Shown here in pieces: positions 2,818 through 64,000 of a DNA stretch of 64,000 bases (its first letter is position 1; each line of letters starts with the position of its first letter). A program made the position numbers and the translations under genes. The notes under the pieces are model-generated. The model was not told where the DNA came from. It worked only from the letters and a program-made list of their open reading frames with translations, and ran no database searches. Location: contig NZ_JARNTW010000002.1 in NCBI RefSeq assembly GCF_029433105.1, positions 661,744 through 725,743 of the forward strand, written 5' to 3'. This DNA is from Runella sp. MFBS21 (GTDB lineage: Bacteria > Bacteroidota > Bacteroidia > Cytophagales > Spirosomataceae).

Positions 2818-4380
2818 ATGGCACTTCTTGGAAACTTGTTAAAAGGAGGCATTACGCTTACAACGCGTATTCAGAGCAAAAAAGTGAATTTTGCGAAAGT
2901 ACAGCGCAAAACCCTAAGTAAACTATTGGCAAAGGCCCGTTATACCCAATTTGGGGAACAATATAATTTTGAAGATATTCTCAATTCTGCCGTTTTTGAT
3001 GAGGGCAATACCTTCTATGAAAAGTATAAGCAGTATGTGCCCGTTCATAATTATGAGAAAATCTATCGTGAATGGTGGCACAAGGCCCGTGCTGGTGAAA
3101 AAAATGTAACTTGGCCGGGAAAAGTTAAATATTTTGCGCTGAGTTCGGGGACTTCGGAGGCTGCCTCTAAGTATATTCCGGTCACCAAAGCAATGACCAA
3201 ATCCTTTCGTAATACAAGTATTCGGCAGATTTTGTCGCTGGGGCGCTATGAGGATTTGCCAAGCGATTTGTACGAAAAAAATTTCTTGATGATTGGCGGT
3301 AGTATCGACCTGACCGCTATCGACGAAGGTCGTTTTGAAGGCGATGTAAGTGGTATCAATGCCAAAAATATTCCCTTTTGGTTTGAGCCTTACTATAAGC
3401 CAGGCCGCGAAATAGCCCGCGAACGTGATTGGTCGCGTAAGCTCGAAAAAATCGTGGAAGAAGCCCCTAAATGGGATATTGGTTTTATGGCGGGCGTACC
3501 GGCGTGGCTCCAAATCATCATGGAAAAAATCATTGAGCGTTATGAGCTTGACAATATCCACGATATTTGGCCCAACCTGACAATATTTGGTCACGGGGGT
3601 GTCTCCTTTGAACCTTATCGGGCAGGTTTTGAAAAGCTTCTTGCGCATCCTCTGATTTACATTGATACTTACTTAGCGTCGGAAGGATTTCTCGCCTTCC
3701 AAAACCGTCCCAATGCCGATGGGATGAAACTCGTACTCGACAATGGTATCTTCTATGAATTTATCCCCTTCAATAGCCACAACTTCAACGAGGATGGGGA
3801 GATGGTAGAAAACCCCCAAACCCTTATGATTGATGAAGTGGAAGAAGGAGCAGAGTATGCCTTGCTAATTTCTACTTGTTCGGGCGCGTGGCGTTATTTG
3901 ATTGGTGATACTATCCGATTTGTGAATAAAAAATACGGTGAAATTGTCGTAACAGGCCGTACCAAGCACTACTTGAGCCTGTGTGGCGAACACCTTACGG
4001 TCGAAAATATGAACAAAGCCATTGAGCTTACTGCCGAAGAACTTGGGATTACGGTCAAGGAGTTTACGGTAGCAGGGATTCGTTTGGATTCGCTTTTTGC
4101 ACATCATTGGTACATTGGCACCAACGATCAAGTGGATGCGCAATTGGTGAAAGAAAAAATAGATCATCACCTCAAAGTTCTAAATGATGATTATGTAGTG
4201 GAGCGTCGTCATGCCCTCAAAGATGTATTTGTGACGATATTGTCCACCGAAACCTTTTATGGTTGGATGGCCAAAAGAGGTAAGTTGGGCGGACAAAATA
4301 AATTCCCAAGGGTATTGAAAAAGAACCTAATTGCTGATTGGCAAGAATATTTGGAAAATCAACCGCTTGTGCAGAGTTGA
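2818..4380 (+). CDS. GH3 auxin-responsive promoter superfamily protein
   Basis: A 520-residue member of the GH3 acyl-acid-amido synthetase superfamily (ANL-type adenylating fold). The adenylation motif is seen as YFALSSGTSEAASKYIPVT near residue 105; IDTYLASEGFLAF and ALLISTCSGAWRYLIGDTIRF are the later nucleotide-binding segments, followed by VTGRTKHYLSLCGEHLT. In plants the family conjugates amino acids to hormones. The bacterial homologues, common in Bacteroidota, have no established substrate, so the reaction here is unknown. Full length; ATG at 2818. Confidence 0.88.
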   Translation: MALLGNLLKGGITLTTRIQSKKVNFAKVQRKTLSKLLAKARYTQFGEQYNFEDILNSAVFDEGNTFYEKYKQYVPVHNYEKIYREWWHKARAGEKNVTWPGKVKYFALSSGTSEAASKYIPVTKAMTKSFRNTSIRQILSLGRYEDLPSDLYEKNFLMIGGSIDLTAIDEGRFEGDVSGINAKNIPFWFEPYYKPGREIARERDWSRKLEKIVEEAPKWDIGFMAGVPAWLQIIMEKIIERYELDNIHDIWPNLTIFGHGGVSFEPYRAGFEKLLAHPLIYIDTYLASEGFLAFQNRPNADGMKLVLDNGIFYEFIPFNSHNFNEDGEMVENPQTLMIDEVEEGAEYALLISTCSGAWRYLIGDTIRFVNKKYGEIVVTGRTKHYLSLCGEHLTVENMNKAIELTAEELGITVKEFTVAGIRLDSLFAHHWYIGTNDQVDAQLVKEKIDHHLKVLNDDYVVERRHALKDVFVTILSTETFYGWMAKRGKLGGQNKFPRVLKKNLIADWQEYLENQPLVQS

Positions 4381-4388
4381 GCATAAGG

Positions 4389-4471
4389 GTATTGTGTTTT
4401 TGTAAGTGCTTCAATTATTGTAAAGTCGGAGACTTTATACCGTATCGTCCCGACATCATGTCGGGACGAGC
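4389..4471. repeat. 83-bp direct repeat, copy 1 (REP-like hairpin element)
   Basis: Identical over all 83 bases to 4540-4622. Each copy holds two hairpins: TAAAGTC-GGA-GACTTTA and a longer perfect one with 11-bp arms (TCGTCCCGACA and its complement) around a 3-base loop. It lies just after the GH3-family gene, so the hairpins could also help terminate transcription or protect the 3' end. Confidence 0.9.
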
Positions 4472-4539
4472 CATGATAATACGGCCCTCATTAAGGGTTT
4501 CATACCAGACTTTTTTTCTTCTAAATTAGGTCTTTTAAA

Positions 4540-4622
4540 GTATTGTGTTTTTGTAAGTGCTTCAATTATTGTAAAGTCGGAGACTTTATACCGTATCGTC
4601 CCGACATCATGTCGGGACGAGC
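4540..4622. repeat. 83-bp direct repeat, copy 2
   Basis: Second perfect copy of the element at 4389-4471, in the same orientation and separated from it by 68 bp. It ends 77 bp before the PLP-enzyme start at 4700. It resembles bacterial REP elements; no transposase is adjacent. Confidence 0.9.
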
Positions 4623-4699
4623 GATGAAATATTCTATTTAGGAGGTTTTGTATTTTTTTCAAAACCTCCTACTTTTATCGCTTCCGTAAACCCATACTT

Positions 4700-5641
4700 A
4701 TGATTCCTACCTTATCTGTAATCAGTGCAGCGCACGAGCGCATCCGTCCTTATATTCATCAAACCCCCGTTCTTACGTGTCAGACTATCAATCGTTTAAG
4801 TGGAGCAGAGATTTATTTTAAATGCGAAAACTTTCAGAAAATTGGCGCATTTAAAGCACGTGGAGGGGTAAATGCCGTGCTGTCGTTGTCGGAAGAAGAA
4901 CTCACCAATGGTGTAACCACACATTCGTCGGGCAACCACGCGCAGGCGATTGCGTATGCGGCAGGTTTGGTAGGAACTAAAGCCTACATTGTAATGCCAC
5001 GCACTGCGCCGCAAGTCAAAAAAGATGCAGTACGCGGCTATGGCGCAGAGGTGATTGAGTGTGAGCCTACGCTCGAAGCCCGCGAAAGTACTGTGGCGCA
5101 GGTTATTGCAGAGCATGGAGCTACTATGATTCACCCCTTCAATGACTACCGAGTGATTGCAGGGCAAGCTACGGCCACCAAAGAACTGATTGAAGAAAAA
5201 GGAAATTTTGATGTGATTATGGCCCCTGTTGGCGGTGGAGGATTGTTGAGCGGTACCGCCTTGAGTGCTCATTATCTTTGCCCGAAAGCGGAGGTGATAG
5301 CGGGCGAACCCGAAGGCGCTGCCGATGCGGTATTGTCCATCAAAACTGGCAATATTGAAAAAGCCCCTTTTATTAATACGATTGCTGATGGATTATTGAC
5401 AAACCTTGGTGACAAAACCCTTGAAATCATTCGGGTTCATGTAAAAGATATTTTATTGGTAAGTGACCCCGAAATCATCGAGGCCATGCGCCTGATTTGG
5501 GAACGGATGAAAATTGTGATTGAGCCTTCATGTGCCGTACCCTTTGCGGCGCTATTGCGCAACAAAGAAAGGTTTACAGGAAAAAAAGTAGGCATTATTC
5601 TTACAGGCGGCAATGTAGATTTGGGCAAATTACCTTTCTAA
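4700..5641 (+). CDS. Threonine dehydratase / serine racemase-like PLP enzyme
   Basis: A 313-residue fold-type II PLP enzyme. The PLP-binding lysine is in FKARGGVNAV near residue 52, the substrate loop is SSGNHAQAIAYAA, and the phosphate-binding loop is GGGGLLSG near residue 180. ILTGGNVDL closes the protein. There is no ACT regulatory domain, so it matches the short catabolic form (TdcB / serine racemase / threo-3-hydroxyaspartate ammonia-lyase group) rather than biosynthetic IlvA. It probably deaminates L-threonine or L-serine to the 2-oxo acid; family members cannot be separated by eye. Confidence 0.88.
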   Translation: MIPTLSVISAAHERIRPYIHQTPVLTCQTINRLSGAEIYFKCENFQKIGAFKARGGVNAVLSLSEEELTNGVTTHSSGNHAQAIAYAAGLVGTKAYIVMPRTAPQVKKDAVRGYGAEVIECEPTLEARESTVAQVIAEHGATMIHPFNDYRVIAGQATATKELIEEKGNFDVIMAPVGGGGLLSGTALSAHYLCPKAEVIAGEPEGAADAVLSIKTGNIEKAPFINTIADGLLTNLGDKTLEIIRVHVKDILLVSDPEIIEAMRLIWERMKIVIEPSCAVPFAALLRNKERFTGKKVGIILTGGNVDLGKLPF

Positions 5642-5723
5642 CTTAGAAAGTCTACTTTGCGATTATAATCAGCTTTATGGCTTTTGTGCCAGACTTTCTA
5701 TATCTCTTACAAAATTAGAAAAT

Positions 5724-7172
5724 CTATTTTGTGCTCTTAGTTAGAATCAGCTCTATGGCTTTTTCCATTTCTATATCTCGTCCCGAAGCTAGGTCTTTGG
5801 CCGTATAAACGACAGGGTAGTGAGGCTGTACACCTCTACCGACATTGGGTGCAGGGGTATTGGTTTCAATCCTAAAATGAGGGAAATTTACTATCATTTT
5901 GGTTTGTGGGAGTATTACTTTAGAGGTAAGGCCACCGCTACATCCTGCTTCGCCACCCCCCGTCTCTTGACCAATCAAAATGGCATTGGTGTGGGCTTTG
6001 AGTAAACTCGCCAAAATCGCACCTGCCGAAAAAGTAAAGCCGCTGGTGAGTACATATATTTGTTCGTTGAAGTGTGCTTTTTTATAAGGTTTTATGATTT
6101 CGATGCCGTCGGTCATACGGCGGTATTGGCCGTTGGGAAGTTGCTTCAATTCTTTAGGGTTAAACAAATGGTCTTTGGGAGCGGGAGCGATATGAGCCGT
6201 AAAAGATAGCTGATTGACGGGCGCATCGCAGGTTCGAAAATTAGGGATAGATTGGGTGAGGACATACCTCAAAATATCATCACTACTGCCCGTGTCCCCG
6301 CCAGGGTTGTTGCGTAAATCAATGATTAGGTTTTTAATTTTTTGTTGCTGTAAAATCCGAAAAACGCTTTTGTGGAATTTTTTATAATCTTCATATCCAA
6401 AGCCATTGCAAGTCATAAGAAGAGTGTGTGGTGCTTCCGATAGCACTTTGAAATTGCGTAATTTCTCCAAAGCAGCCTTTGCTTGCTGTTTTTTTTCGGC
6501 TTTAGAAGGCTTGGAGGTGGTATTTGAAACCTCTGTACGAGATTGTGTGAAGACAATACTTTCTCTAACGTCGCCTTCAGGGCTTTTGACGAGCATTCGA
6601 TACGGAGCTTTGATGTTGTAGAGGTCATTGACGGTTTCCTCCAATCGATATAAACTCAAAAAGTAATCTTTAAAAGTTTGGTTATAGCCGTCGGCTTGAC
6701 AATAATTGCGGGCGGTTTGGATAAATTCAGAAACGGGTCTGTCGTTGATACGCAAGATTTCGGTGCCGCGAACAAGGGTGGTATCAGAGCAGTTTTTACC
6801 CAAAATTCGGACAAAAAGCTGCTTGTTGATGACTTGACAATGAAAAGGAAACCAAGAATTGGCGTCTTTTTGGGCATCAAAAGCCTCCGAATTCATCAGA
6901 TAAGTATGCCCACAATGAATGTTGGCAATGAGAGATGCCCACCTAAAAAACAGCTCTTTTTCGTTCATGGGGCGGTCGAGTTGCTTCAAAGCCTTCTCAA
7001 AGGCTCTGTCCATACTATCTTTGGGAGTGTACCAATAAAGGCCCGGATGTGCTTCTTCTAAGATATGACGGAGAAAATATAAATCACTTTTGGATTGTTC
7101 GACGCTATAGACTTGAGCGATACTTCGCGAAAAGATGCTTATTAATAAAAAGCTCAAAAGTTGTTTTTTCAT
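5724..7172 (-). CDS. Secreted S41 (C-terminal processing) family peptidase
   Basis: A 482-residue protein with an N-terminal signal peptide (MKKQLLSFLLISIFSRSIAQ). The tail-specific protease core is recognisable: LIIDLRNNPGGDTGSSDD, then YVLTSGFTFSAGAILASLL, whose Ser in FTFSAG is the expected nucleophile, then ETGGGEAGCSGG. A PDZ-like segment (RGTEILRINDRPVSEFI) precedes the core. It probably acts in the periplasm on unfolded or C-terminally tagged proteins. It converges on the upstream plus-strand gene. A short imperfect duplication of its 3' coding end lies just downstream (5643-5683). Confidence 0.85.
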   Translation of the reverse strand: MKKQLLSFLLISIFSRSIAQVYSVEQSKSDLYFLRHILEEAHPGLYWYTPKDSMDRAFEKALKQLDRPMNEKELFFRWASLIANIHCGHTYLMNSEAFDAQKDANSWFPFHCQVINKQLFVRILGKNCSDTTLVRGTEILRINDRPVSEFIQTARNYCQADGYNQTFKDYFLSLYRLEETVNDLYNIKAPYRMLVKSPEGDVRESIVFTQSRTEVSNTTSKPSKAEKKQQAKAALEKLRNFKVLSEAPHTLLMTCNGFGYEDYKKFHKSVFRILQQQKIKNLIIDLRNNPGGDTGSSDDILRYVLTQSIPNFRTCDAPVNQLSFTAHIAPAPKDHLFNPKELKQLPNGQYRRMTDGIEIIKPYKKAHFNEQIYVLTSGFTFSAGAILASLLKAHTNAILIGQETGGGEAGCSGGLTSKVILPQTKMIVNFPHFRIETNTPAPNVGRGVQPHYPVVYTAKDLASGRDIEMEKAIELILTKSTK

Positions 7173-19635: not shown

Positions 19636-19709
19636 CGGGATGTAGCACAGCCAGGTAGTGTACTTGTATGGGGTGCAAGGGGTCGTGAGTTCGAATCTCG
19701 CCATCCCGA
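19636..19709 (+). tRNA. tRNA-Pro (anticodon GGG), prophage integration target
   Basis: Cloverleaf by hand: acceptor CGGGATG/CATCCCG, D-stem GCAC/GTGT, anticodon stem CTTGT/GCAAG with loop ATGGGGT (anticodon GGG), T-arm GTGAG-TTCGAAT-CTCGC. Its last 25 bases form part of the 79-bp att repeat, so the gene stays intact after integration. CCA is not encoded. Confidence 0.95.
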
Positions 19710-19763
19710 CAATTGAAAAGCCTGTAAGCCAAAAACTTACAGGCTTTATGTTTTTAAAGTGGC
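19685..19763 (+). repeat. attL, 79-bp direct repeat
   Basis: Identical to 62263-62341. It includes the last 25 bases of tRNA-Pro and the following terminator hairpin, then ends just upstream of the integrase start. Confidence 0.95.
19717..19747 (+). terminator. tRNA-Pro terminator inside the att repeat
   Basis: 12-bp stem AAAGCCTGTAAG/CTTACAGGCTTT, 7-base loop, then ATGTTTTT. The whole hairpin lies within the 79-bp repeat and is duplicated at 62295-62325, so it is present at both attachment sites. Confidence 0.85.
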
Positions 19764-19819
19764 AGAATGTGGCAAGCTGGTGGCAGAACTATGCAGCGCT
19801 GCAAAATATAGTAGTAAAA

Positions 19820-20971
19820 ATGTCATTCCCTTACAAAGCAGCTTATCTTTCTAAACCCAATGATAATTCACTAGAAAAAAAATGGTTCATCACCTTCTGG
19901 GTATGGAATGAAACCAAAGGTGAACTGGAGAGGAAAAGAATTATAGCGATTGGGGATTCTGTGGAGGAAAGAGAAAAATTTGCCAATAGCCTCATATCCG
20001 AAATTAATGCAAAATTAGAGAAAGGGATTGTAGTGGCCCCAGTCAAAAGGGCAACGGTTTTGGAAATAGAGCTAAAGCCTAATATGTTACTTACTGACGC
20101 TCTCTTATTTTTTACTACTCTCAAAACCGCGACCCTCAAGAAAAAGTCTTCTACCACTTACTCGGATAACAGTAAGAACTTTGAGGAATTCCTTACTAAG
20201 AAAGGCCTTTTGGGCATTAAGCTGAATGAGTACACTGCTGCTCAAGCGAGTGAATACACTGATTATATAATTCTTGAGAAGAAGTTGTCTAATAAGTCGC
20301 ACAACAAATTGAAAGGTTTTGCCAGTTCGGTTTTCAATGAGTTTGTGAGGAGAAAACTTATTCAGGAAAACCCCTTTTCAAATATCACTGGACTTATTGT
20401 TACTCAGGGAGGGCATCGGGTTTTTACGCCTGCCCAAATCGCAGAGTTTAAAAACATTGTGCAGCAACATCAACCCGGAATGTGGTTTTTTGCGGCTTTT
20501 ATTTACTATACGTTTATGCGACCTCATCAGGAGGCTCGACAAATAAAGGTAGGAGATATTGGAGACCGAACGATAAGAGTGCAGGAAACCATTGCCAAAA
20601 CGAGTGTGATTCGCCATGTTTATATTCCTCCGGGATTAGAGGCTTTGTTACAACAACATGAGATAAGAAGCTATCCTTCTCATTTTTATCTATTTTCTTA
20701 TAACGCTGTTCCTGGCGCTCAATTGGTGTCAGAAGGGTACTGGTATAAAAAGCACAAAAAGGTACTAATCCAAATGGGTCTATTTAATAAAGGATATGAT
20801 TTGTATGGATGGAAACATACTGGAGTGTGTGCCTTGTACCGAGCTACGAAAGATATCAAGCTGGTACAAGAGCAGTGTGGTCATAAAGACATAAAACAGA
20901 CCGTAGACTACTTGAGAGATTTGGGGGTGCTGTTTTATGAAGGGCAAATCAATAAATTCCCTACTATATAA
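19820..20971 (+). CDS. int: Phage tyrosine recombinase (integrase)
   Basis: A 383-residue integrase beside its tRNA target, so it should catalyse integration and excision at the 79-bp att core. The ATG at 19820 is preferred; the frame runs open into the tRNA, and an ATG at 19748 is a second option. The SAM-like core-binding domain spans about residues 90-190. In the catalytic domain, Arg I is in YTFMRPHQEAR, a Lys-His-Thr (GWKHTG) replaces the usual Arg-His-Thr, and CGHKDIKQTVDYLRD carries the late His and the nucleophilic Tyr. The Lys for Arg II change occurs in other Bacteroidota phage integrases as far as I recall. Confidence 0.93.
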   Translation: MSFPYKAAYLSKPNDNSLEKKWFITFWVWNETKGELERKRIIAIGDSVEEREKFANSLISEINAKLEKGIVVAPVKRATVLEIELKPNMLLTDALLFFTTLKTATLKKKSSTTYSDNSKNFEEFLTKKGLLGIKLNEYTAAQASEYTDYIILEKKLSNKSHNKLKGFASSVFNEFVRRKLIQENPFSNITGLIVTQGGHRVFTPAQIAEFKNIVQQHQPGMWFFAAFIYYTFMRPHQEARQIKVGDIGDRTIRVQETIAKTSVIRHVYIPPGLEALLQQHEIRSYPSHFYLFSYNAVPGAQLVSEGYWYKKHKKVLIQMGLFNKGYDLYGWKHTGVCALYRATKDIKLVQEQCGHKDIKQTVDYLRDLGVLFYEGQINKFPTI

Positions 20972-39190: not shown

Positions 39191-40801
39191 TTAGCGGCCT
39201 GAGAAAACGAAAAGATGATTTTTTCTAGGAGCATGGTTCGATAAGTACTTTTTACATTTGACCCAAAGCCAGTAATCAAGGGCATCGGTGCCATCGGTAG
39301 CGTACTCTCGGTTCTTGGTGCTCCGCTCACTGCTCTTGTCCTTGCCTATGCGCCTTGCCTTCTTATAGGTCTTGTCAGTAGTGACGGGGGTCTGGGTGAG
39401 GTTGATGATGAGTACTTTATTAGTGAGTTTATTGATAGCTATATGTGGGGCCCTAGGATTACTTTCCTCAAATAACATATTGATGAGGTGGTATTTGTCC
39501 TTATGAGAGGGGTAGCTTGTAAGCTCCCTTCGGTAGATGACCCAGCCCTCTTTAATAAGGATGTCACATATCTGGTCAAAGAAGGGGCGGTTATCCACCT
39601 TGGTAGCGGCGGAGGTACTATTGCCCCCGGGGTCGCCGTAAATAAAGACCTCTTTTTTTTCGTGGTTTTTGTAGGTCTCACAAAACCATTTGGCCTGTTT
39701 TTCAATAAGGCTGTTTTTTTGGTCTTTTAAATTTTTCTTTTCTGAAGGGGTTACTTTTTCGTAGTGGGAATGAATGACTTTGAGGGTTTTTCCGGTATCC
39801 TGACCTACGACACCCCAAACAATATCGGCATTGAAATCAAGGCTATAATCAAGGGGTTTGTCGGTTTCATAATCGTTGGATCGGTAGAGGAGAATACCCG
39901 TTTTTTCGTCGGGAATGTAATCATAGCTTTTGGTGTAACAGTGGCGTTCGGGATTGAAGCCGTAGTAAAAGCTGTTGGGGAGTTTACCCATGCGTTCGTT
40001 TTCGACCTCGACGGCGTATTCAAGCGGGTCGAGTTGGTCGCGTAGTTGCTGCTCAAAATCGGGGGGCAATACGGCGGCATTGTCCCGAAAGGTAGATTCT
40101 AGGAAAAGAAATTTGGGGGGAATGGCCTTTAATTCGTCCGAAGTGAGCCTGCTCCGTTGCTCAATCATGGCATTGTAATGCTCTTCGGTTTCGTAAATCC
40201 ACATTCCTTCTTGGGTCCAGCTTGCGGAGCTGAAGTCGAAGAACCCTTTGTTCCAAGGGTGGTTTGCCCAGGGAGCGTAGTTGTTACCACGCCTCGCGGG
40301 GAGCAGCACTTTACGGACAAAATCACTGCTGATGGTGGCTGATTCATCAATGAGCACGCCGTCGATGCTGAGACCTCGGTGGGTTTCGGCGCGGTCTTGG
40401 CTGCAAAACTGGAGCGTAAAGCCATTGATGAAGCTAAGACAATATTGATAGCCGAGCCTGCCTACTTTTTTGTAGGGAGTGGTCCAGTGATCGGGTGGCC
40501 GAATACCTACCACATACACGCCCGCCGGGTTTTGTTTGGGATGGTATTCGGAATAGCCCATAAAGCCTAATGCCTCCCGAATAGCGGGTAAAACAATGAG
40601 GTCGAGTTGGACATAGGTGAGTCCCCCTACGACCCATTTGGCACGGGGAAAATCATTGAACAATTTACCCACCACAAAGCCTAACACCGTAGACTTTCCG
40701 GAGGCACGACCGCCGATGAATGATTTGCGGTTGGCTCTGGACCGCAAAAATTTAATTTGTTTATCGTTGGCGTGTATTTTGACGACCTTCTCGTTATTCA
40801 T
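39191..40801 (-). CDS. terL: Terminase large subunit
   Basis: A 536-residue DNA-packaging motor. The Walker A motif GGRASGKST is at residues 30-38 and the Walker B-like segment IDGVLIDESATI near residue 150. The C-terminal RNase H-like nuclease is seen as DYSLDFNADIVWGVVGQD (first Asp) and YATDGTDALDYWLW (late Asp). It overlaps the upstream small-subunit gene by 8 bases. The first 231 residues are almost identically repeated in the remnant at 62426-63121. Confidence 0.93.
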   Translation of the reverse strand: MNNEKVVKIHANDKQIKFLRSRANRKSFIGGRASGKSTVLGFVVGKLFNDFPRAKWVVGGLTYVQLDLIVLPAIREALGFMGYSEYHPKQNPAGVYVVGIRPPDHWTTPYKKVGRLGYQYCLSFINGFTLQFCSQDRAETHRGLSIDGVLIDESATISSDFVRKVLLPARRGNNYAPWANHPWNKGFFDFSSASWTQEGMWIYETEEHYNAMIEQRSRLTSDELKAIPPKFLFLESTFRDNAAVLPPDFEQQLRDQLDPLEYAVEVENERMGKLPNSFYYGFNPERHCYTKSYDYIPDEKTGILLYRSNDYETDKPLDYSLDFNADIVWGVVGQDTGKTLKVIHSHYEKVTPSEKKNLKDQKNSLIEKQAKWFCETYKNHEKKEVFIYGDPGGNSTSAATKVDNRPFFDQICDILIKEGWVIYRRELTSYPSHKDKYHLINMLFEESNPRAPHIAINKLTNKVLIINLTQTPVTTDKTYKKARRIGKDKSSERSTKNREYATDGTDALDYWLWVKCKKYLSNHAPRKNHLFVFSGR

Positions 40802-41321
40802 CTAGTTCCTGTTGTTGCTGCTTAAGCACGTTTATGTTATTGACGAAAATGAATTTGGCCGCTTTGATGAAATCATCAGGGTTGAGCCCAGTTTCATCGG
40901 TTTCGTGGAGTTTGGCAAGTTTATCGGCTTTATCGCGGGCAGTGACGGCGGTTTCGTACTGCTTGTCTTTCATGGCCAAGTTTGACATGAGGTCATAAAA
41001 AGCGATGCTTGCCGCTCGGCGCCCGTCCTTATCGACTTGATCGAGGCGACCATGAATAAACTTAGACTCCTCAAAAATGTAACGGGCTTGTCGTTCCTGA
41101 AGGTCGTGTTTACGCATGAGCTGACTACGTACCATTTCTTCGGTACGGCCCATGCAGTAGAGTGCCCATGCTTCGCGGTATCGTTCGAGCATTTCTTGCT
41201 GGGTGGGGGTGAGCTGCTCCCACTCTACTTCGCGTCCATAGTACTTGAGGTAGATGTCCAATCGGTCTTCATCTATCTTGAGTACCCGTTTTAGTTTTCC
41301 AATTCCTAGTTTCTTTGCCAT
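40794..41321 (-). CDS. terS: Terminase small subunit
   Basis: A 175-residue protein upstream of terL. It has an N-terminal helical DNA-binding region (ALYCMGRTEEMVRSQLMRKHDLQERQARYIF) and a C-terminal oligomerisation/TerL-contact tail (QQQQELDE). The ATG at 41321 gives the conserved MAKKLGIGKLK start shared with the second copy at 63114-63641, which differs by one residue. A terminator-like hairpin lies 11 bases before the start codon. Confidence 0.85.
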   Translation of the reverse strand: MAKKLGIGKLKRVLKIDEDRLDIYLKYYGREVEWEQLTPTQQEMLERYREAWALYCMGRTEEMVRSQLMRKHDLQERQARYIFEESKFIHGRLDQVDKDGRRAASIAFYDLMSNLAMKDKQYETAVTARDKADKLAKLHETDETGLNPDDFIKAAKFIFVNNINVLKQQQQELDE

Positions 41322-41332
41322 AATAAAATAAA

Positions 41333-41359
41333 AATCACACCCCAAGTTGAGGTGTGATT
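41333..41359 (-). terminator. Terminator-like hairpin directly before terS
   Basis: 9-bp stem AATCACACC/GGTGTGATT with a T-rich tail on the minus strand that ends at the terS start codon. It is conserved in the second terS copy (63653-63679). It may be an attenuator for the packaging genes. Confidence 0.7.
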
Positions 41360-41378
41360 GTGAAGGACAATAGGACAA

Positions 41379-41594
41379 AGTTTTTGGAGGCTAGCTCTTG
41401 TCTCCTTGTTGATGCACGACAAAATGGGAGTTAAGAAATCTTCTTTTATTTGACTTAAACAGTAAAAAACAGTATGTAATAAATTATTGCAACTTTATGT
41501 ATAGTCAATGAGCAGAAACTAATAAATAGTAATGTTCGATTAGTCAAATTATCTTCAAAATTTTCAGTCAAATAAATAAAAGAACAAAAAACTT
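41379..41594. other. AT-rich divergent intergenic region
   Basis: Spacer between divergent terS (minus) and a small plus-strand gene. It holds a repeated GGACA motif pair at its left end (41365-41378) and AT-rich sequence likely to contain promoters in both directions; no exact consensus is seen. Confidence 0.45.
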
Positions 41595-41975
41595 ATGATA
41601 ATGAACTTTGAAATGCCTATGTCAGCTAGCCAGCTTAAAGATCAGATGATAAATATGCTCCATTATCTTGATAGTAACTTAACCACTGAACAACCTCGTA
41701 TTCCTATTTTTTTTGGCGGGGATAAATTTTGGGCTAGCGGGAATAACACATGTTATTATCCTACAGAAGTAAAGGGAGTAATTCAAATTCGAAAGATGAA
41801 GAGGTTGTATATTATTTCTCCTGAACTTAGCGAAAAGGTATACTATATTAAAAATGATAAATGGTTTGATAAGAATAAGATAGAGGTAAGTTCAGACCAT
41901 TTTGAGTTTCTTAAAATGTTATTTAATGAGATATTACAGAAAGATACTGAAGAAGGACAAGAGTCTGCCAAATAA
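41595..41975 (+). CDS. Small AT-rich cargo gene on the opposite strand
   Basis: A 126-residue protein, family not recognised. It is the only plus-strand gene inside the late region, AT-rich, with its own upstream spacer and a bidirectional terminator behind it (42003-42028). Those traits fit a cargo gene expressed from the lysogen. The sequence has an FGGDKFWASGNNTCYYP segment and a helical acidic C-terminus. A possible second start is the internal ATG at 41601. Confidence 0.62.
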   Translation: MIMNFEMPMSASQLKDQMINMLHYLDSNLTTEQPRIPIFFGGDKFWASGNNTCYYPTEVKGVIQIRKMKRLYIISPELSEKVYYIKNDKWFDKNKIEVSSDHFEFLKMLFNEILQKDTEEGQESAK

Positions 41976-42002
41976 TAAGTTTAGAGTTACACCAAGAAAT
42001 AG

Positions 42003-42028
42003 AAAAAGGGAGCGAGTGCCCCCCTTTT
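42003..42028. terminator. Bidirectional terminator between convergent genes
   Basis: AAAAGGG/CCCCTTTT arms with A and T runs on both sides, between the plus-strand cargo gene and the convergent minus-strand gene ending at 42034. Confidence 0.7.
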
Positions 42029-42033
42029 CTATT

Positions 42034-42603
42034 CTAAAACAAACTCATCCCACTAGGGTCGCTTATGGCTTTTTTGGCTCGTTCCTTAAACTCCTCTTCG
42101 CGGAGCATTTCGGCCTGATTCATTAGCAACGCTCCCTCCTCAAAAAAGTGTTTCCAACCTCGCCCGACTCTTCGACCGCGGTCATTGTGTTTATCGTACG
42201 CAAAGTCAGGGATTGGATTTTTTTTGAAAGGGTGAGTGAGCCATGCCCAAATCAACGCCCAATCTACCAAACGGCTTTTTTTGGACCGACAAAGCAACAA
42301 AACCGCGTGCGTCAGAAACAAGCGTTGGGGTTCGTTAGCATCATCCTTTTTCTTTGACTGCTTCTCAAACATGCAGTACAAAGCCCAAATCTCCGATGAA
42401 ATCGTCGGGTCTGCCAAGCCCACATCTTCGCTCGACATGATGCGGAGCCGCTTCCAGATGTATTCGCTAAAATTGCTTTCGTACAGCTCCACGGCCCAAT
42501 ACAGCGCCTCATCTTCCATGCCACGGCGGATGCACTTTTGCAACGCCGAGCTACACTCAAAAAAATCGTATCCTTTCTTTGTGATGATTTCGTACTTACC
42601 CAT
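42034..42603 (-). CDS. Stand-alone MgsA/RarA C-terminal domain protein
   Basis: A 189-residue protein. EDEALYWAVELYESNFSEYI followed by WKRLRIMSSEDVGLADP matches the C-terminal helical domain of the RarA/MgsA AAA+ ATPase (DAALYWLARMLEAGEDPxFIARRLVIFASEDIGLADP), yet no ATPase domain is present. In RarA this part drives tetramerisation and contacts the replication machinery. A phage-borne stand-alone copy might interact with host RarA, SSB or clamp loader. It overlaps the upstream SymE-like gene by 8 bases and is therefore coupled to it. Confidence 0.68.
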   Translation of the reverse strand: MGKYEIITKKGYDFFECSSALQKCIRRGMEDEALYWAVELYESNFSEYIWKRLRIMSSEDVGLADPTISSEIWALYCMFEKQSKKKDDANEPQRLFLTHAVLLLCRSKKSRLVDWALIWAWLTHPFKKNPIPDFAYDKHNDRGRRVGRGWKHFFEEGALLMNQAEMLREEEFKERAKKAISDPSGMSLF

Positions 42604-43564: not shown

Positions 43565-44365
43565 TTACAAAAATGATAGTTGACCAAATTTCCCCACCGT
43601 AGGTGCTTCCTTGACGGTCGTGGTAGCTATTTTTGCCGCTTCTTCAGCTTGCGCTTTTTTCTTGGCAAACTCCTGCTTGTCTTGCTGATATTGTTGCCAC
43701 TGCAGGCATTGTTCTTTCTGAATCCTGACGATGTGAGGAATACCCACGACACGTATGTAAGGATTGATAGCGAAGCCAAAACGCCAATCATCGGGGTGCA
43801 GGCTGTCGATACAAACGGCCTGCCCTTCGCAGCCGTGGAGCATCATATTGAGGGCCGTCATTTTGGCACAAATCGGGTCTATGTCGCCCGCAAAAGTGTA
43901 GTTGCCCGGAAAGTGCGCATGAAACGCAATCAGCATGCGGCCACTGCCCGAGCAAGGGTCATTCATTCGGGCTTTAGGGCCTGCTTTCTGCTCACCCGTA
44001 ATGATCGTGAGGAAGTCCACCACATCGGGCGGGGTGAAAAACTGCCCCAAGGCACTTGCTTTGTGGGTGGAAGAAATCACCTCATAAAAAGCCCCCAAGG
44101 CATCATACCATTTTTTGCCCCTATGGAGCATCTTATGTTGGAGCTGCATCCATTCCCTCATGAGCCCTTGAAAATCGGGGTAGCAGTCGCCGTAGCGTTG
44201 TTGGAGTTGTTTGGCTTTTTCGGCATCGCCCGTGTCCAGGAAACAAGCAATGGCATAATCAATAAAATCCGTGAATACTTCACCGTAGCCGTGTCGGTAG
44301 GCGATTTTTTCAAAGACGTAGTTAAACTCCCGGAGTTCTACCGGGACATCAGTCGTTTTAGGCAT
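43565..44365 (-). CDS. N6-adenine DNA methylase-like protein with altered catalytic motif
   Basis: A 266-residue protein of the type I restriction HsdM/N6 methylase fold. Motif X is GQFFTPPDVVDFL and the AdoMet-binding motif I is DPCSGSGRML, followed by AGDIDPICAKMTALNMMLHG. The catalytic motif IV is expected as NPPY or DPPF, but the sequence reads FGFAINPYIRVV, lacking the second Pro. A Lys/Gln/Ala-rich tail follows. Phage homologues may modify phage DNA against restriction; the altered motif makes activity uncertain. Confidence 0.75.
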   Translation of the reverse strand: MPKTTDVPVELREFNYVFEKIAYRHGYGEVFTDFIDYAIACFLDTGDAEKAKQLQQRYGDCYPDFQGLMREWMQLQHKMLHRGKKWYDALGAFYEVISSTHKASALGQFFTPPDVVDFLTIITGEQKAGPKARMNDPCSGSGRMLIAFHAHFPGNYTFAGDIDPICAKMTALNMMLHGCEGQAVCIDSLHPDDWRFGFAINPYIRVVGIPHIVRIQKEQCLQWQQYQQDKQEFAKKKAQAEEAAKIATTTVKEAPTVGKFGQLSFL

Positions 44366-44383
44366 TGTTTTGGGGAATAAAAA

Positions 44384-44405
44384 AGCCCCTCGGTCGTGAG
44401 GGGCT
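44384..44405 (-). terminator. Terminator between the 229-residue gene and the methylase-like gene
   Basis: AGCCCCTC/GAGGGGCT stem followed on the minus strand by six T. Confidence 0.8.
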
Positions 44406-44413
44406 AGGGGTTC

Positions 44414-45103
44414 TTAAAAGGGGACTTCTTCGAGTTGGGGTTTGAGCACGTAGCAGATTTTGAGGAGGTGTTCGACGTAGTACTCTTTGATGCCAAACCC
44501 GGTCACTTCCCTAAACCTTTCCTCTATCCGTTTGAGCTTCACTTCCGCCGGGTTTTTGTAAGTGCGTGGCCGGTACTTCATCACAAACTCCACGAGGTCT
44601 TGCACGGTGATTTCAAAGCCACTGTTTTCGCTCATTTCTTGGGCTTGGGTGTCGAGGTTAAGGCCGTCTTTTTTAAACCATGTACGGCTTACATCGGCGA
44701 GGTGATTTTTATCGCCAAATTGCTCAAAGTCACTTTTAGGGAAGAATGCCAAGCTATTGGCAATGGTGCTTTCCTTACAAGTCCATGCGAGGGCATCGGC
44801 TTTGGTTTCGCTCCAGAGTTTACCCAGCTCGTAAGGGTTTTGGCTGTTTTGGATAAGGTACTCACTTACCTCATTTTCCGAAATACCCAAAGGAAGAGGC
44901 GTAGGAACATGGATAAGGTGGGCGGCTGAATAGATATTAAGTTTGGCACATACCAACTTATCCAAGGTATTGATGTGCATTTTACGTCCTACTTCCGACG
45001 CCCATTCCAAATATTCCTTTTCGGTTTTGCCCGTAGTGGCGATGAAGCGGTCCAAGTGAGTAGTGACCCGATTACTTTTTTGAGGGATGCTTTGTTGTTC
45101 CAT
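44414..45103 (-). CDS. Phage protein of unknown function
   Basis: A 229-residue protein, start in the TTCTAAGCAAAATG leader, directly downstream of the second 76-bp promoter repeat and upstream of the methylase-like gene. Helical, with no recognised motif (VTTHLDRFIATTGKTEKEYL at the N-terminus). Confidence 0.6.
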   Translation of the reverse strand: MEQQSIPQKSNRVTTHLDRFIATTGKTEKEYLEWASEVGRKMHINTLDKLVCAKLNIYSAAHLIHVPTPLPLGISENEVSEYLIQNSQNPYELGKLWSETKADALAWTCKESTIANSLAFFPKSDFEQFGDKNHLADVSRTWFKKDGLNLDTQAQEMSENSGFEITVQDLVEFVMKYRPRTYKNPAEVKLKRIEERFREVTGFGIKEYYVEHLLKICYVLKPQLEEVPF

Positions 45104-45129
45104 TTTGCTTAGAATATTTACTTTAAAAT

Positions 45130-45205
45130 ATTGATTATCAAATAGTTGTGTGTGTTATTTGATAGTGTAAATATCTCCCGACAGAACGGATTAAAAAAGC
45201 GTTTT
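45130..45205 (-). repeat. 76-bp promoter/operator repeat, copy B
   Basis: Perfect copy of 43449-43524, with the same TATCAAATA/TATTTGATA palindrome, upstream of the 229-residue gene. Confidence 0.85.
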
Positions 45206-45517
45206 TCCTGATTTTTTTTATTTTTTTTGAGGATCCTAGAACATTAAAAAGTGCGTTTCCAGCGAATAGAAGCACATTTTTTAGTGAAAAGAAAGAAGAT
45301 ATAGAAGGATACAAAAAAAGCCACTGAACACATCGTTCAGTGGCTTGCTGTAATTTGGACTTTTGGTGGACAAGGCTACAATCTCAGATGTTCAAAAACA
45401 GCATTTTAAACAAATTTAGTCGGTTATCCTTGTTGTACCCGACTGATAATCCGCTCACCTTTTTAGTCCTTCTTGTTCGTATATATGGAATGAGGATTAG
45501 CGTTCGCAAGTTCAAAG
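45206..45517. other. Intergenic region with terminator, no gene seen
   Basis: AT-rich spacer. It contains the terminator at 45318-45346; the remainder shows no convincing gene. A 65-codon plus-strand frame here lacks any support. Confidence 0.5.
45318..45346 (-). terminator. Terminator of the ParB-glycosyltransferase operon
   Basis: Perfect 11-bp stem AAGCCACTGAA/TTCAGTGGCTT, 7-base loop, followed on the minus strand by a T run. Confidence 0.85.
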
Positions 45518-45658
45518 TTATTTTAAAATCTCAATAATCCAAATCAACAACCCAATCAATGCGGCCACCCCACCAATCAAAGCAATAAAAGGCCAAGCTT
45601 CTTCTAGCCCTTTAGCTCTTTTCTGCGGACTCCAATTATTGTTATATTTATTCTTCAT
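45518..45658 (-). CDS. Small single-helix membrane protein
   Basis: A 46-residue protein with one transmembrane helix (WPFIALIGGVAALIGLLIW) after a polar N-terminus. It overlaps the glycosyltransferase-like stop codon (ATGA), so it is the third gene of the ParB operon. Function unknown. Confidence 0.6.
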   Translation of the reverse strand: MKNKYNNNWSPQKRAKGLEEAWPFIALIGGVAALIGLLIWIIEILK

Positions 45659-46389
45659 CAAAAAGGTATTCTTAAGGTTTTCTGAAAAGGGTGCTTTGTA
45701 TTCTGTTTAGACTTACGAAGCTCCACTACGTCTCCAAAAACTCGTTGAAGTAATTGGAAATCTTTTTCCTCGGCATCAATGTTCCTAAATTCCGCCAATC
45801 CTCCACGATTGACAAAGGTGTCTTTTTGTTTCCAATAAAAACGCGTATCCTTCCAAAGGAGCCGATGATGATGCGCGTTGAGGAGGCTTATCCAATAATC
45901 CTCATTGCAGATGATATCGGGGTTGTACCACAGCTTGGAGCCTTCCAGTACCCCGTGGGCGCAACCCGTCACGTAGCCACTGAGCCGAATGGGATTAAAC
46001 GCATCGTAGCTAATGGGAGCCGGTGAGGAGCTAAAACCAAAGAGGTAGGCACCGGCCTCGTGAGCCGCGTGCGCGGTGGCTTGGATAATGTCATAAGCCT
46101 CGTCAGGTTCTACCGTCGTGGGCTCTCCTTTGCCTACATAAATTCGACTCAAGCCTTCAACATCATCATCCAGCATAAACACATTTTTGAAATGCTTGAT
46201 GATCCAGTCCCGCTTCCGGGCAAGGCCAATCACGCTGTCGGGATGCGTCACGATTTCTACGCCCTTGTTACATTTTTCGTAGAGACTCCGTTGGCTTTCG
46301 GCCACGCACAAAATCGCATTGTCCACGGCCATTGTCGTCAGCACTCTATCCCAGCGCCGATGCGACGGTATCACTACCTTTACTTCCAT
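45658..46389 (-). CDS. Glycosyltransferase-like protein (GT-A fold), ParB-linked
   Basis: A 243-residue protein. MEVKVVIPSHRRWDRVLT and the VFMLDDDVEGL motif (DDD, like the DxD that binds metal and nucleotide sugar), with GLARKRDWIIKHF between them, fit a GT-A glycosyltransferase, and may belong to the phage group linked to modified DNA bases (TET-associated glycosyltransferase family). ICNEDYWISLL is a later acidic motif. The ATG at 46389 overlaps the ParB-like stop by 10 bases, so the two are coupled. The acceptor could be a modified base, or a surface glycan; no base hydroxylase gene is seen in the window. Confidence 0.65.
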   Translation of the reverse strand: MEVKVVIPSHRRWDRVLTTMAVDNAILCVAESQRSLYEKCNKGVEIVTHPDSVIGLARKRDWIIKHFKNVFMLDDDVEGLSRIYVGKGEPTTVEPDEAYDIIQATAHAAHEAGAYLFGFSSSPAPISYDAFNPIRLSGYVTGCAHGVLEGSKLWYNPDIICNEDYWISLLNAHHHRLLWKDTRFYWKQKDTFVNRGGLAEFRNIDAEEKDFQLLQRVFGDVVELRKSKQNTKHPFQKTLRIPF

Positions 46390-46994
46390 CGCTCTATCAC
46401 TTTTTGAGAGTCTACCACGTGCATCATGCCCACCTTGGAGCTTTTGTAGCATTTGCCCCGCTCGATGCCCAGCTTTTCGGCGATGTGATTGGCGTCAATC
46501 TCATTAGGGCACACTATCACAAACGACGTATACTTTTCGCTCATCACCGCCACAATCGGTAGCTCAGGCTCCTGAGCCGTCTCTTGGGTGGCCTCAGCAA
46601 GCTGCTTGTCTAGCTCCGAGAAGTCAAAACCAAAATCCCCAAGGTCTACATAGCGGTCAAACTCTGCCTTGAGCATTTCCAAATCAAACTCTCCCGCGTG
46701 GCTATTTTCGATAATCATCACCTCCCTTAGCTCCTCTTCGGTGAGCTTACGGGTGGCGGTACGTACATCTAGCTCGTAGTCGCCGAGGCCATTTTGTACC
46801 AGTAGCTCACACCGCTGATGCCCACTGAGCAGGGTGCCGTCAGCATCGCGGATAGGGATACCTATCATCCCATATTTTTGGAGGCGTTCCCAAAGCTTAC
46901 GTTTTTGTTCGGCTTTGATTTTACGCGGGTTTTTGACGTGAGGAACCAACTCGGAGACCCGCACCCGGTCGGTTTGAAATAGTTCATTTATCAT
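46380..46994 (-). CDS. ParB/Srx-fold nuclease-domain protein
   Basis: A 204-residue protein with a ParB-like N-terminal domain: VPHVKNPRKIKAEQK, YGMIGIPIRDADGTLLSGHQ and RCELLVQNG correspond to the Box I and Box II (GxRR-like) segments. No HTH domain for parS binding is evident, so plasmid-type partitioning is unlikely. Such stand-alone ParB domains in phages act as nucleases or nucleotide-binding partners of DNA modification genes. Its start has the TACAGCC leader motif. Confidence 0.78.
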   Translation of the reverse strand: MINELFQTDRVRVSELVPHVKNPRKIKAEQKRKLWERLQKYGMIGIPIRDADGTLLSGHQRCELLVQNGLGDYELDVRTATRKLTEEELREVMIIENSHAGEFDLEMLKAEFDRYVDLGDFGFDFSELDKQLAEATQETAQEPELPIVAVMSEKYTSFVIVCPNEIDANHIAEKLGIERGKCYKSSKVGMMHVVDSQKVIERWK

Positions 46995-62190: not shown

Positions 62191-62262
62191 TGGTGGCAAA
62201 ACCGAAGAAGTATAATTGATTGTTTAACAGGTGCTTACATGTATTTTTCTAGGGGAATGGTT

Positions 62263-62341
62263 GTGAGTTCGAATCTCGCCATCCCGACAATTGAAAAGCC
62301 TGTAAGCCAAAAACTTACAGGCTTTATGTTTTTAAAGTGGC
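62263..62341 (+). repeat. attR, 79-bp direct repeat
   Basis: Perfect copy of attL, starting with the last 25 bases of tRNA-Pro and including the duplicated terminator hairpin (62295-62325). Confidence 0.95.
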
Positions 62342-62385
62342 GAAACTACGCAATCTTGCAAAACTATAGTAATAAAAATGTACTT

Positions 62386-63121
62386 GGCGTGTTCAAGCGG
62401 GTTGAGTTGGTGGGGTAGTTGTTGTTCAAAATCCGGGGGGAATGGCCTTTAATTCGTCCGAAGTGAGCCTGCTCCGTTGCTCAATCATGGCATTGTAATG
62501 CTCTTCGGTTTCGTAAATCCACATTCCTTCTTGGGTCCAGCTTGCGGAGCTGAAGTCGAAGAACCCTTTGTTCCAAGGGTGGTTTGCCCAGGGAGCGTAG
62601 TTGTTTCCACGCCTCGCGGGGAGCAGCACTTTCCTTACAAAATCACTGCTGATGGTGGCTGATTCATCAATGAGCACGCCGTCGATGCTGAGACCTCGGT
62701 GGGTTTCGGCGCGGTCTTGGCTGCAAAACTGGAGCGTAAAGCCATTGATGAAGCTAAGGCAATATTGATAGCCCAGCCTGCCCACTTTTTTGTAGGGAGT
62801 GATCCAGTGATCGGGTGGCCGAATACCTACCACATACACGCCCGCCGGGTTTTGTTTGGGATGGTATTCGGAATAGCCCATAAAGCCTAATGCCTCCCGA
62901 ATGGCGGGTAAAACAATGAGGTCGAGTTGGACATAGGTGAGTCCCCCTACGACCCATTTGGCACGAGGAAAATCATTGAACAATTTACCTACCACAAAGC
63001 CTAACACCGTAGACTTTCCGGAGGCACGACCGCCGATGAATGATTTGCGGTTGGCTCTGGACCTCAAAAATTTAATTTGTTTATCGTTGGCGTGTATCTT
63101 GACGACCTTCTCGTTATTCAT
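62386..63121 (-). pseudogene. Truncated terminase large subunit (terL')
   Basis: Encodes the first 228 or so residues of terL, including the Walker A and B motifs, nearly identical to 39191-40801. The frame then ends after AIPPGF: compared with the intact copy, 54 bases between two GGGGGG tracts are missing and one extra base is present. A further stretch of terL homology is recognisable out of frame to 62386. No nuclease domain remains. Confidence 0.88.
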
Positions 63122-63641
63122 CTAGTTCCTGTTGTTGCTGTTTGAGCACGTTTACGTTATTGACGAAAATGAATTTGGCCGCTTTGATGAAATCATCAGG
63201 GTTGAGCCCGGTTTCATCGGTTTCGTGGAGTTTGGCGAGTTTGTCGGCTTTATCGCGGGCCGTGACGGCGGTTTCGTACTGCTTGTCTTTCATGGCCAAG
63301 TTTGACATGAGGTCATAAAAAGCGATGCTTGCCGCTCGGCGTCCATCCTTATCGACTTGGTCGAGGCGACCATGAATAAACTTAGACTCCTCAAAAATGT
63401 AACGGGCTTGACGTTCCTGAAGGTCGTGTTTCCTCATGAGCTGACTACGTACCATTTCTTCGGTACGGCCCATGCAGTAGAGTGCCCATGCTTCGCGGTA
63501 TCGTTCGAGCATTTCTTGCTGGGTGGGGGTGAGCTGCTCCCACTCGACTTCGCGGCCATAGTACTTGAGGTAGATGTCCAATCGGTCTTCATCTATCTTG
63601 AGTACCCGTTTTAGTTTTCCAATTCCTAGTTTCTTTGCCAT
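63114..63641 (-). CDS. terS: Terminase small subunit, second copy (intact)
   Basis: A 175-residue intact copy of terS. By eye it differs from 40794-41321 at 15 nucleotides over about 520, and at only one residue (Ile to Val near the C-terminus). Because terL' is broken, it cannot serve packaging of its own phage, but could bind packaging sites of the resident or incoming phage. The upstream terminator-like hairpin is conserved. Confidence 0.85.
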   Translation of the reverse strand: MAKKLGIGKLKRVLKIDEDRLDIYLKYYGREVEWEQLTPTQQEMLERYREAWALYCMGRTEEMVRSQLMRKHDLQERQARYIFEESKFIHGRLDQVDKDGRRAASIAFYDLMSNLAMKDKQYETAVTARDKADKLAKLHETDETGLNPDDFIKAAKFIFVNNVNVLKQQQQELDE

Positions 63642-63652
63642 AATAAAATAAA

Positions 63653-63679
63653 AATCACACCCCAAGTTGAGGTGTGATT
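63653..63679 (-). terminator. Conserved hairpin before the second terS
   Basis: Same AATCACACC/GGTGTGATT hairpin with T-rich tail as at 41333-41359. Confidence 0.7.
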
Positions 63680-63748
63680 GGGGGAGTAAAAAGGACGGAA
63701 TTTTTAGAGCGCTATTGACTAGCTACACTTTTACACGCTTGGTGTTAA

Positions 63749-64000
63749 GCTATTTCAGGGATATACAATTCTCCTCCTCCGGCCGAAATCACCCCATTAA
63801 CAACCGGCAATGACAACACCTTGTTTAAAGTCACTCTTCAAGCCAACAAAGGAGAACGATTTTCGTATCAATGGCAAAAAGACAATCAGGACATAGAAGG
63901 AGCCAATCAGGTAGCTTATGAGATTTCCAATTCGGGAAATTATACCGTGAAAGTCACTCACAATGGCTGCAGTAACGTTTCTAAAGCCATATATATAGTT
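63749..64000 (+). pseudogene. Ig-like domain protein fragment, 5' end missing, runs off the window
   Basis: An open frame without a start codon begins after a stop at 63746 and continues past the window. It encodes an Ig/PKD-like module (FSYQWQKDNQDIEGANQVAY, NYTVKVTHNGCSNVSKAIY) like those in the type IX-secreted protein at 8044-10770. The lack of a start and closeness to the prophage remnant suggest the host gene lost its 5' part when the remnant was formed. An alternative is that it is an ordinary exported gene with an unusual start further upstream. Confidence 0.6.

Follow-up and report, generated by a model that had tools for sequence, protein, structure and literature searches.

An intact terS gene in a decayed prophage relic beside a related prophage at a tRNA-Pro gene of Runella sp. 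MFBS21

Results

The resident prophage and its integration site

The DNA analysed here, which we call the window, is a stretch of 64,000 nucleotides of Runella sp. MFBS21 (genome label G000), whose draft assembly has 72 contigs. A tRNA-Pro (GGG) gene, found by ARAGORN at positions 19636..19710 of the forward strand, is the integration site of a resident prophage of about 42 kb, bounded by attL at the tRNA gene and by attR. Both sites were found as repeats on the forward strand: attL (19681..19767) adjoins the tRNA gene and is identical at 85/87 positions to attR (62259..62344), where the 3' end of the tRNA gene recurs. The attR sequence also follows tRNA-Pro in G008, a genome of the same genus that is free of the prophage.

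The resident integrase lies at the left end, in a frame at 19658..20971 of the forward strand (Phage_integrase PF00589, 4.4e-8; phrog_1, 9.4e-32); judged from its leader, its true start is at about 19820. The reverse strand carries an open terL of 536 aa (39191..40801; phrog_979 terminase large subunit, 6e-4) and, upstream of it, a terS of 175 aa (40794..41321), whose product is 99% identical to the relic TerS described below. The prophage also has matches to an N6 methylase (43565-44365), a TET-associated glycosyltransferase (45658-46452, 1.5e-28) and a ParB-like protein (46380-46994): this gene set, at 43565-46994, suggests that the phage DNA is modified.

The relic inside the window

To the right of attR, the sequence presents, in this order, a 37-base piece of integrase leader, a short terL scrap, a truncated terL that we denote terL', a terS, and a hairpin. 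The leader-like stretch, the truncated terL' and the intact terS with its hairpin had all been predicted from the letters alone, and both alignment and folding bear them out. The leader piece (62345..62381, forward strand) belongs to the integrase of another prophage: it aligns with the resident leader at 19788-19824, with 30/36 aligned bases identical, and with G008, and it is cut off at its start codon, the ATG at 62378-62380. The terL scrap that is joined to it (62386..62443, reverse strand) is 86% identical to 40013-40070 with several amino-acid-changing differences, and the joint is the same in G008.

A further match follows: positions 62429-63714 are 96.8% identical to resident positions 40109-41393. 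On the reverse strand, terL' (62426..63121; phrog_2, 2.9e-12) is the start of terL, open over 231 of the 536 codons, until a 53-base deletion between near-repeats shifts the frame and a stop follows. The relic terS (63114..63641, reverse strand) is an intact open frame of 175 aa, as comparison with the resident gene and with relatives confirms, and its 8-base overlap with terL is preserved. Directly before it, a hairpin with a T run (63653..63679, reverse strand) aligns with its counterparts in relatives, with fold z values of -2.7 in the relic and -3.3 in the resident. Such a terminator-like hairpin precedes the terS start codon in both copies (63653-63679 and 41333-41359), with paired changes across relatives; a role in attenuation is conceivable, as is one within the packaging site.

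The identity of TerS

The relic gene is named terS by its position upstream of terL, and this identification holds at the level of gene order. The protein has no match in Pfam or PHROG, a PDB profile search gives nothing significant, and no terminase-named family appears among the weak PHROG matches of its 21 relatives. Its predicted fold is all helical, in a model of low certainty, and its best viral match is an uncharacterised Polaribacter phage protein (E 9.8e-5). Small terminase subunits consist of a helix-turn-helix followed by a helical oligomerisation part.

A search with the single protein finds no relatives in the GTDB genome contigs, IMG/VR or INPHARED, in which records of this genome or of very near ones may be absent; an alignment-based search of IMG/VR finds the 21 relatives. 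A terL adjoins terS in 21/21 viral loci examined, the terL match of one of them (L128) running in three frames, and, with the present relic set aside, in 21/22 genome loci; the one that departs from this order is the relic of G008. The genome loci were drawn from 30 places, five weak ones being left out, and a 26-residue second copy in genome G011 has no terL of its own. Thus, among the viral and genome loci examined, no other intact terS stands without terL. In L128 (IMG/VR 2839242338_000003, 4001-6084), an open terS lies beside the three-frame terL, whose reading frame is either truly shifted or disturbed by errors of sequencing.

Partial copies of the start of terS recur in this phage lineage: contig C8 of G011 (L017, 3345-3419) and locus L116 (2607-2681) each hold, about 1.3 kb upstream of their intact terS, a truncated second start of the gene that has a leader hairpin of its own and adjoins the end of an MgsA-like gene.

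Silent differences in two genes, one of them broken

The relic and resident terS genes (63114-63641 and 40794-41321) differ at 15 of 528 bases, in 14 codons, of which 13 are silent, and by one residue, I163V (the double change in codon 163 being counted as silent). The count given in the original prediction, 15 sites and one residue, is thus reproduced by alignment, and the dN/dS ratio that it proposed to compute is 0.039.

The broken neighbour serves as a control. Relic and resident terL' differ at 15 of 693 bases, in 13 codons: 11 are silent, one is T107I, and one, codon 230, lies at the joint. With the joint codon left out, the ratio of silent to changed codons is 11:1 in terL', versus 13:1 in terS (P = 1.0; P = 0.65 on raw counts). 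Since a broken gene is as silent-biased as an intact one, the bias is no evidence of TerS function, and we reject it as a sign of selection on TerS. Comparison of the two genes attributes it to phage evolution before the break, or to a cause common to both genes; the caveat, already entered in the original prediction, that it may predate the integration fits this control.

These differences also bear on whether the duplication could be an assembly artefact or a duplicated contig, which the original prediction had named as grounds for withdrawing its reading. The assembly is a draft in 72 pieces, and yet relic and resident can be told apart at 30 sites within 1221 coding bases, and G008 has the same joint: an artefact is very unlikely.

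The relic beyond the window

We extended the window by 5,882 bases, up to the contig end, continuing the coordinates past 64000. The relic goes on to about 68300, with three further blocks colinear with the resident gene order: the end of an MgsA-like gene (66066-66166 and 66766-67160, versus resident 41987-42383), a block at 67195-67618 that corresponds to the resident block at 44.8-45.2 kb (44775-45217), and a piece of a glycosyltransferase gene (68066-68300, versus resident 45660-45894). There are thus four relic blocks in resident order, and terS is the sole complete resident-type gene among them. The original prediction held that two related phages had integrated at one tRNA-Pro and that one of them was reduced to scraps, which the colinear pieces and G008 support; that it was deleted down to the one piece inside the window is rejected, given the three blocks further right.

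Other DNA lies between the scraps. A decayed mobile-element end (63731..63774) has the same end at 11 listed places of the genome (L079-L089), eight of which lie no more than about 130 bases from a contig start and three, judged by locus length, near a contig end; the assembly of this genome is probably interrupted by an insertion element present in many copies. Between the relic terS and the next relic piece are a forward-strand gene fragment that lacks its 5' end and carries a T9SS sorting tail (63749..64000, continuing to about 64261; Por_Secre_tail, 2.9e-9) and a frame of 411 codons that weakly matches an RHS repeat. Apart from the stretches that match the resident, a scan covered four frames of the right flank: one gave an RHS repeat, one a T9SS tail, one DoxX and one nothing.

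What separates terS from the MgsA-like gene is different DNA in the resident (41321-42034), in the relic (63712-66066) and in contig C8 of G011 (about 69.0-70.2 kb), and this position looks like a cargo site. Within the relic, a direct repeat of 101 bases (66066-66166 and 66808-66908, 99% identical, the two copies being about 640 bases apart) probably marks a recent rearrangement. The 11.6-kb stretch that runs to the contig end (L004) contains one att core and no second one; the far att end of the relic prophage was not found in it.

A sister genome with the same relic

A DNA search of 99 genomes, the source genome included, gave a match in eight. One of these is G008: its tRNA-Pro gene is followed by the same att core, the same integrase leader and the same joint of integrase to terL, and no 42-kb prophage is present. 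Nearly all of both terL and terS is missing: only the first 36 or so codons of terS and its leader are kept, with a stop inside. The locus (L036) has one att core only.

The original prediction proposed to look for the remnant in related genomes, and counted frequent inactivation of the second terS there as evidence against a function. G008 does carry the relic, with an inactivated terS; a single genome cannot show that inactivation is frequent.

Since G008 carries the scrap without the resident prophage, the scrap exists independently of the resident. The simplest reading is that it is older than the resident insertion; an alternative order, in which the resident was present early and was cleanly excised from G008, is possible.

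Over five pieces of the relic, G000 and G008 differ at 36/550 aligned bases: 13 of the changes are unique to G000, 21 to G008, and at two sites G000, G008 and the resident all differ. A sixth three-way piece, left out of the 550, has 49 aligned bases and 28 gap columns, with 0 changes unique to G000 and five to G008. Host genes of the two genomes have a dS of 0.32 over 10 genes (one further frame had no match), and dS is 0.05, 0.18 and 0.26 in three genes located to the right of the scraps that lie in the window. Plain inheritance of the relic since the species split is rejected on the comparison of the host dS of 0.32 with 36/550 in the relic; an exchange of the relic locus between species is possible.

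An unusually clean tract

In the terL'-terS tract, amino-acid changes are scarcer than the rest of the relic would lead one to expect. We assigned changes to the relic or the resident side by means of G011 and G003 for terL and terS, and of G003 alone for the MgsA-like gene, so that many assignments rest on one outgroup. On the relic side, terL' and terS together have 0 amino-acid and 9 silent changes (1:9 if the ambiguous T107I is included). The old terL scrap, read only from 62386 to 62425 and without the joint bases 62382-62385, has four amino-acid changes, one of which (62412) is common to G008; the MgsA-like fragment has three amino-acid and three silent changes, counted up to 67156, where the alignment becomes ragged.

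The tract thus stands at 0:9 versus 7:3 for scrap and MgsA-like fragment combined (P = 0.003; 0.02 with T107I). Without the scrap change common to G008, P = 0.009 (0.02 with T107I), and against the MgsA-like fragment alone, P = 0.044 (0.12 with T107I). At the relic-branch rate of 13/550, about 23 amino-acid changes are expected, about 13 in terL' and about 10 in terS, versus at most one and 0 seen; adding the sixth, poorly aligned piece lowers the expectation to 21 (12 in terL', 9 in terS). Even the slowest well-aligned piece outside the tract (3/236) predicts 8 in terL' and 6 in terS (P = 0.014 for both, 0.056 for terL' and 0.029 for terS). The pooled tests range from P ~1e-5 to 0.014.

As a sub-case of the explanation that we favour, the relic may have had little time to decay, neither recombination nor selection being involved and the unevenness among its pieces being due to chance or to clustering of mutations. 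The low divergence between G000 and G008, set against the host dS, and the small counts per piece are in its favour; the pooled tests are not, and we hold this sub-case to be a distinct though somewhat doubtful possibility.

Selection on the lone TerS would be another cause. As in satellites that carry terS, the protein would be kept for packaging interference, binding the packaging site or the TerL of related phages. TerS is intact and close enough to the resident protein to join its rings, and its relic-side amino-acid changes are 0 where about 10 are expected. However, the broken terL' is equally clean, terS is broken in G008, and near-identity with the resident TerS leaves it no evident way to discriminate. 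A scan of 63600-64560, before the relic terS, for a Bacteroidetes-type promoter also gives 0 matches, with little power, as shuffles average only 0.6. We regard this reading as very improbable.

The same clean pattern would arise if purifying selection acted jointly on terS and terL'. The two might be kept as a dominant-negative packaging unit, TerS with a TerL ATPase piece that lacks the nuclease: both frames are open and clean, their 8-base overlap is kept, and terL' stops before what we take to be the nuclease half, given the presumed split of TerL into ATPase and nuclease domains. Yet terL' ends by a frame shift at a deletion between near-repeats, very little of either gene is left in G008, and the loci examined hold no other case; such a unit seems hardly credible. 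Were selection to keep the pair in order to poison the packaging of phages that integrate at this tRNA-Pro, which we think very unlikely, it would explain why clean terS and terL' frames persist amid decaying relic pieces.

The better guess from these sequences, and from small counts, is that the terL'-terS tract was recently replaced by phage recombination. We favour recombination because terL', though broken, has stayed as clean as terS, and because phages have been documented to recombine with prophage remnants in E. coli (PMC3945230). Speaking against it is the only informative site near the right edge of the tract, 63555, at which G008 agrees with the relic and not with the resident: this argues for shared ancestry of the relic prophage there. 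We found no possible donor phage that is nearer to the relic than the resident prophage is.

Discussion

The explanation that we consider very probable is that the locus holds the decayed relic of another prophage, P1, beside the resident, P2, at tRNA-Pro, and that terS is intact as its tract is young, not as it is functional. The joint, the presence of the relic in G008, the colinear pieces and the equal silent bias are direct observations; the order of events that we infer is as follows. P1 would have sat at tRNA-Pro in the same orientation as P2. Deletions would have stripped P1 of most of its DNA and left the start codon of its integrase fused to mid-terL sequence, and cargo and mobile DNA would have come to lie between the scraps. 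P2 most likely integrated later, at the att site on the tRNA side, which would place the P1 scraps just right of its attR. As for terS, either too little time has elapsed, or, as a guess, terL'-terS was overwritten in a recent recombination between the relic and a related phage. Without selection, the relic terS should eventually be lost, as it was in G008.

The relic terS thus looks like ordinary genome debris and not an anti-phage device. The satellite-like role against resident or related phages, suggested in the original prediction, is possible but unsupported: terS is broken in the only other carrier found, terL' is equally silent-biased, the loci examined hold no other intact terS without terL, and of a satellite's own genes only an integrase leader and start codon are recognisable.

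A caution follows. An intact phage gene beside a broken partner, with mostly silent differences, mimics retained function; this false look fades once the broken neighbour gene serves as a control and the locus is read in a sister genome. Should the clean tract indeed be a recombination import, it would illustrate, on a small scale and in nature, how phages overwrite the scraps of prophages in these bacteria.

Comparison with known systems

Phage-inducible satellites of the PICI/SaPI type that carry terS resemble the relic in having terS without a complete terL of their own. According to PMC6092414, PICIs have a replication module and divergent regulator genes, and those of Gram-positive bacteria use att sites never used by prophages. 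Here, only the leader and start codon remain in place of an integrase gene of its own, no satellite module is recognised in the frames scanned, and the stretches that match the resident are packaging, MgsA-like, 44.8-kb-block or glycosyltransferase DNA. Moreover, the terS sequence is that of the local phage, and the att core is also used by the resident prophage.

The mosaic exchange between temperate phages and defective prophages, as treated by De Paepe et al. 2014 (PMC3945230), would account for a tract of low divergence within older scraps. The phages there are those of E. coli; here the exchange is putative, the counts are small, and no donor was found. Among the literature matches listed, no title concerns a lone terS kept in a Bacteroidetes relic.

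The closest likeness is to cryptic, or defective, prophage remnants at tRNA genes: an att core at the 3' end of the tRNA gene, one used by the phage lineage, colinear scraps, most genes broken, foreign DNA between the scraps, and one att side not found. The relic departs from them in that one gene, terS, is intact and that a second, related prophage stands in tandem. It is most likely a decayed prophage of the ordinary kind, and the relative with which it stands in tandem most likely arrived after it.
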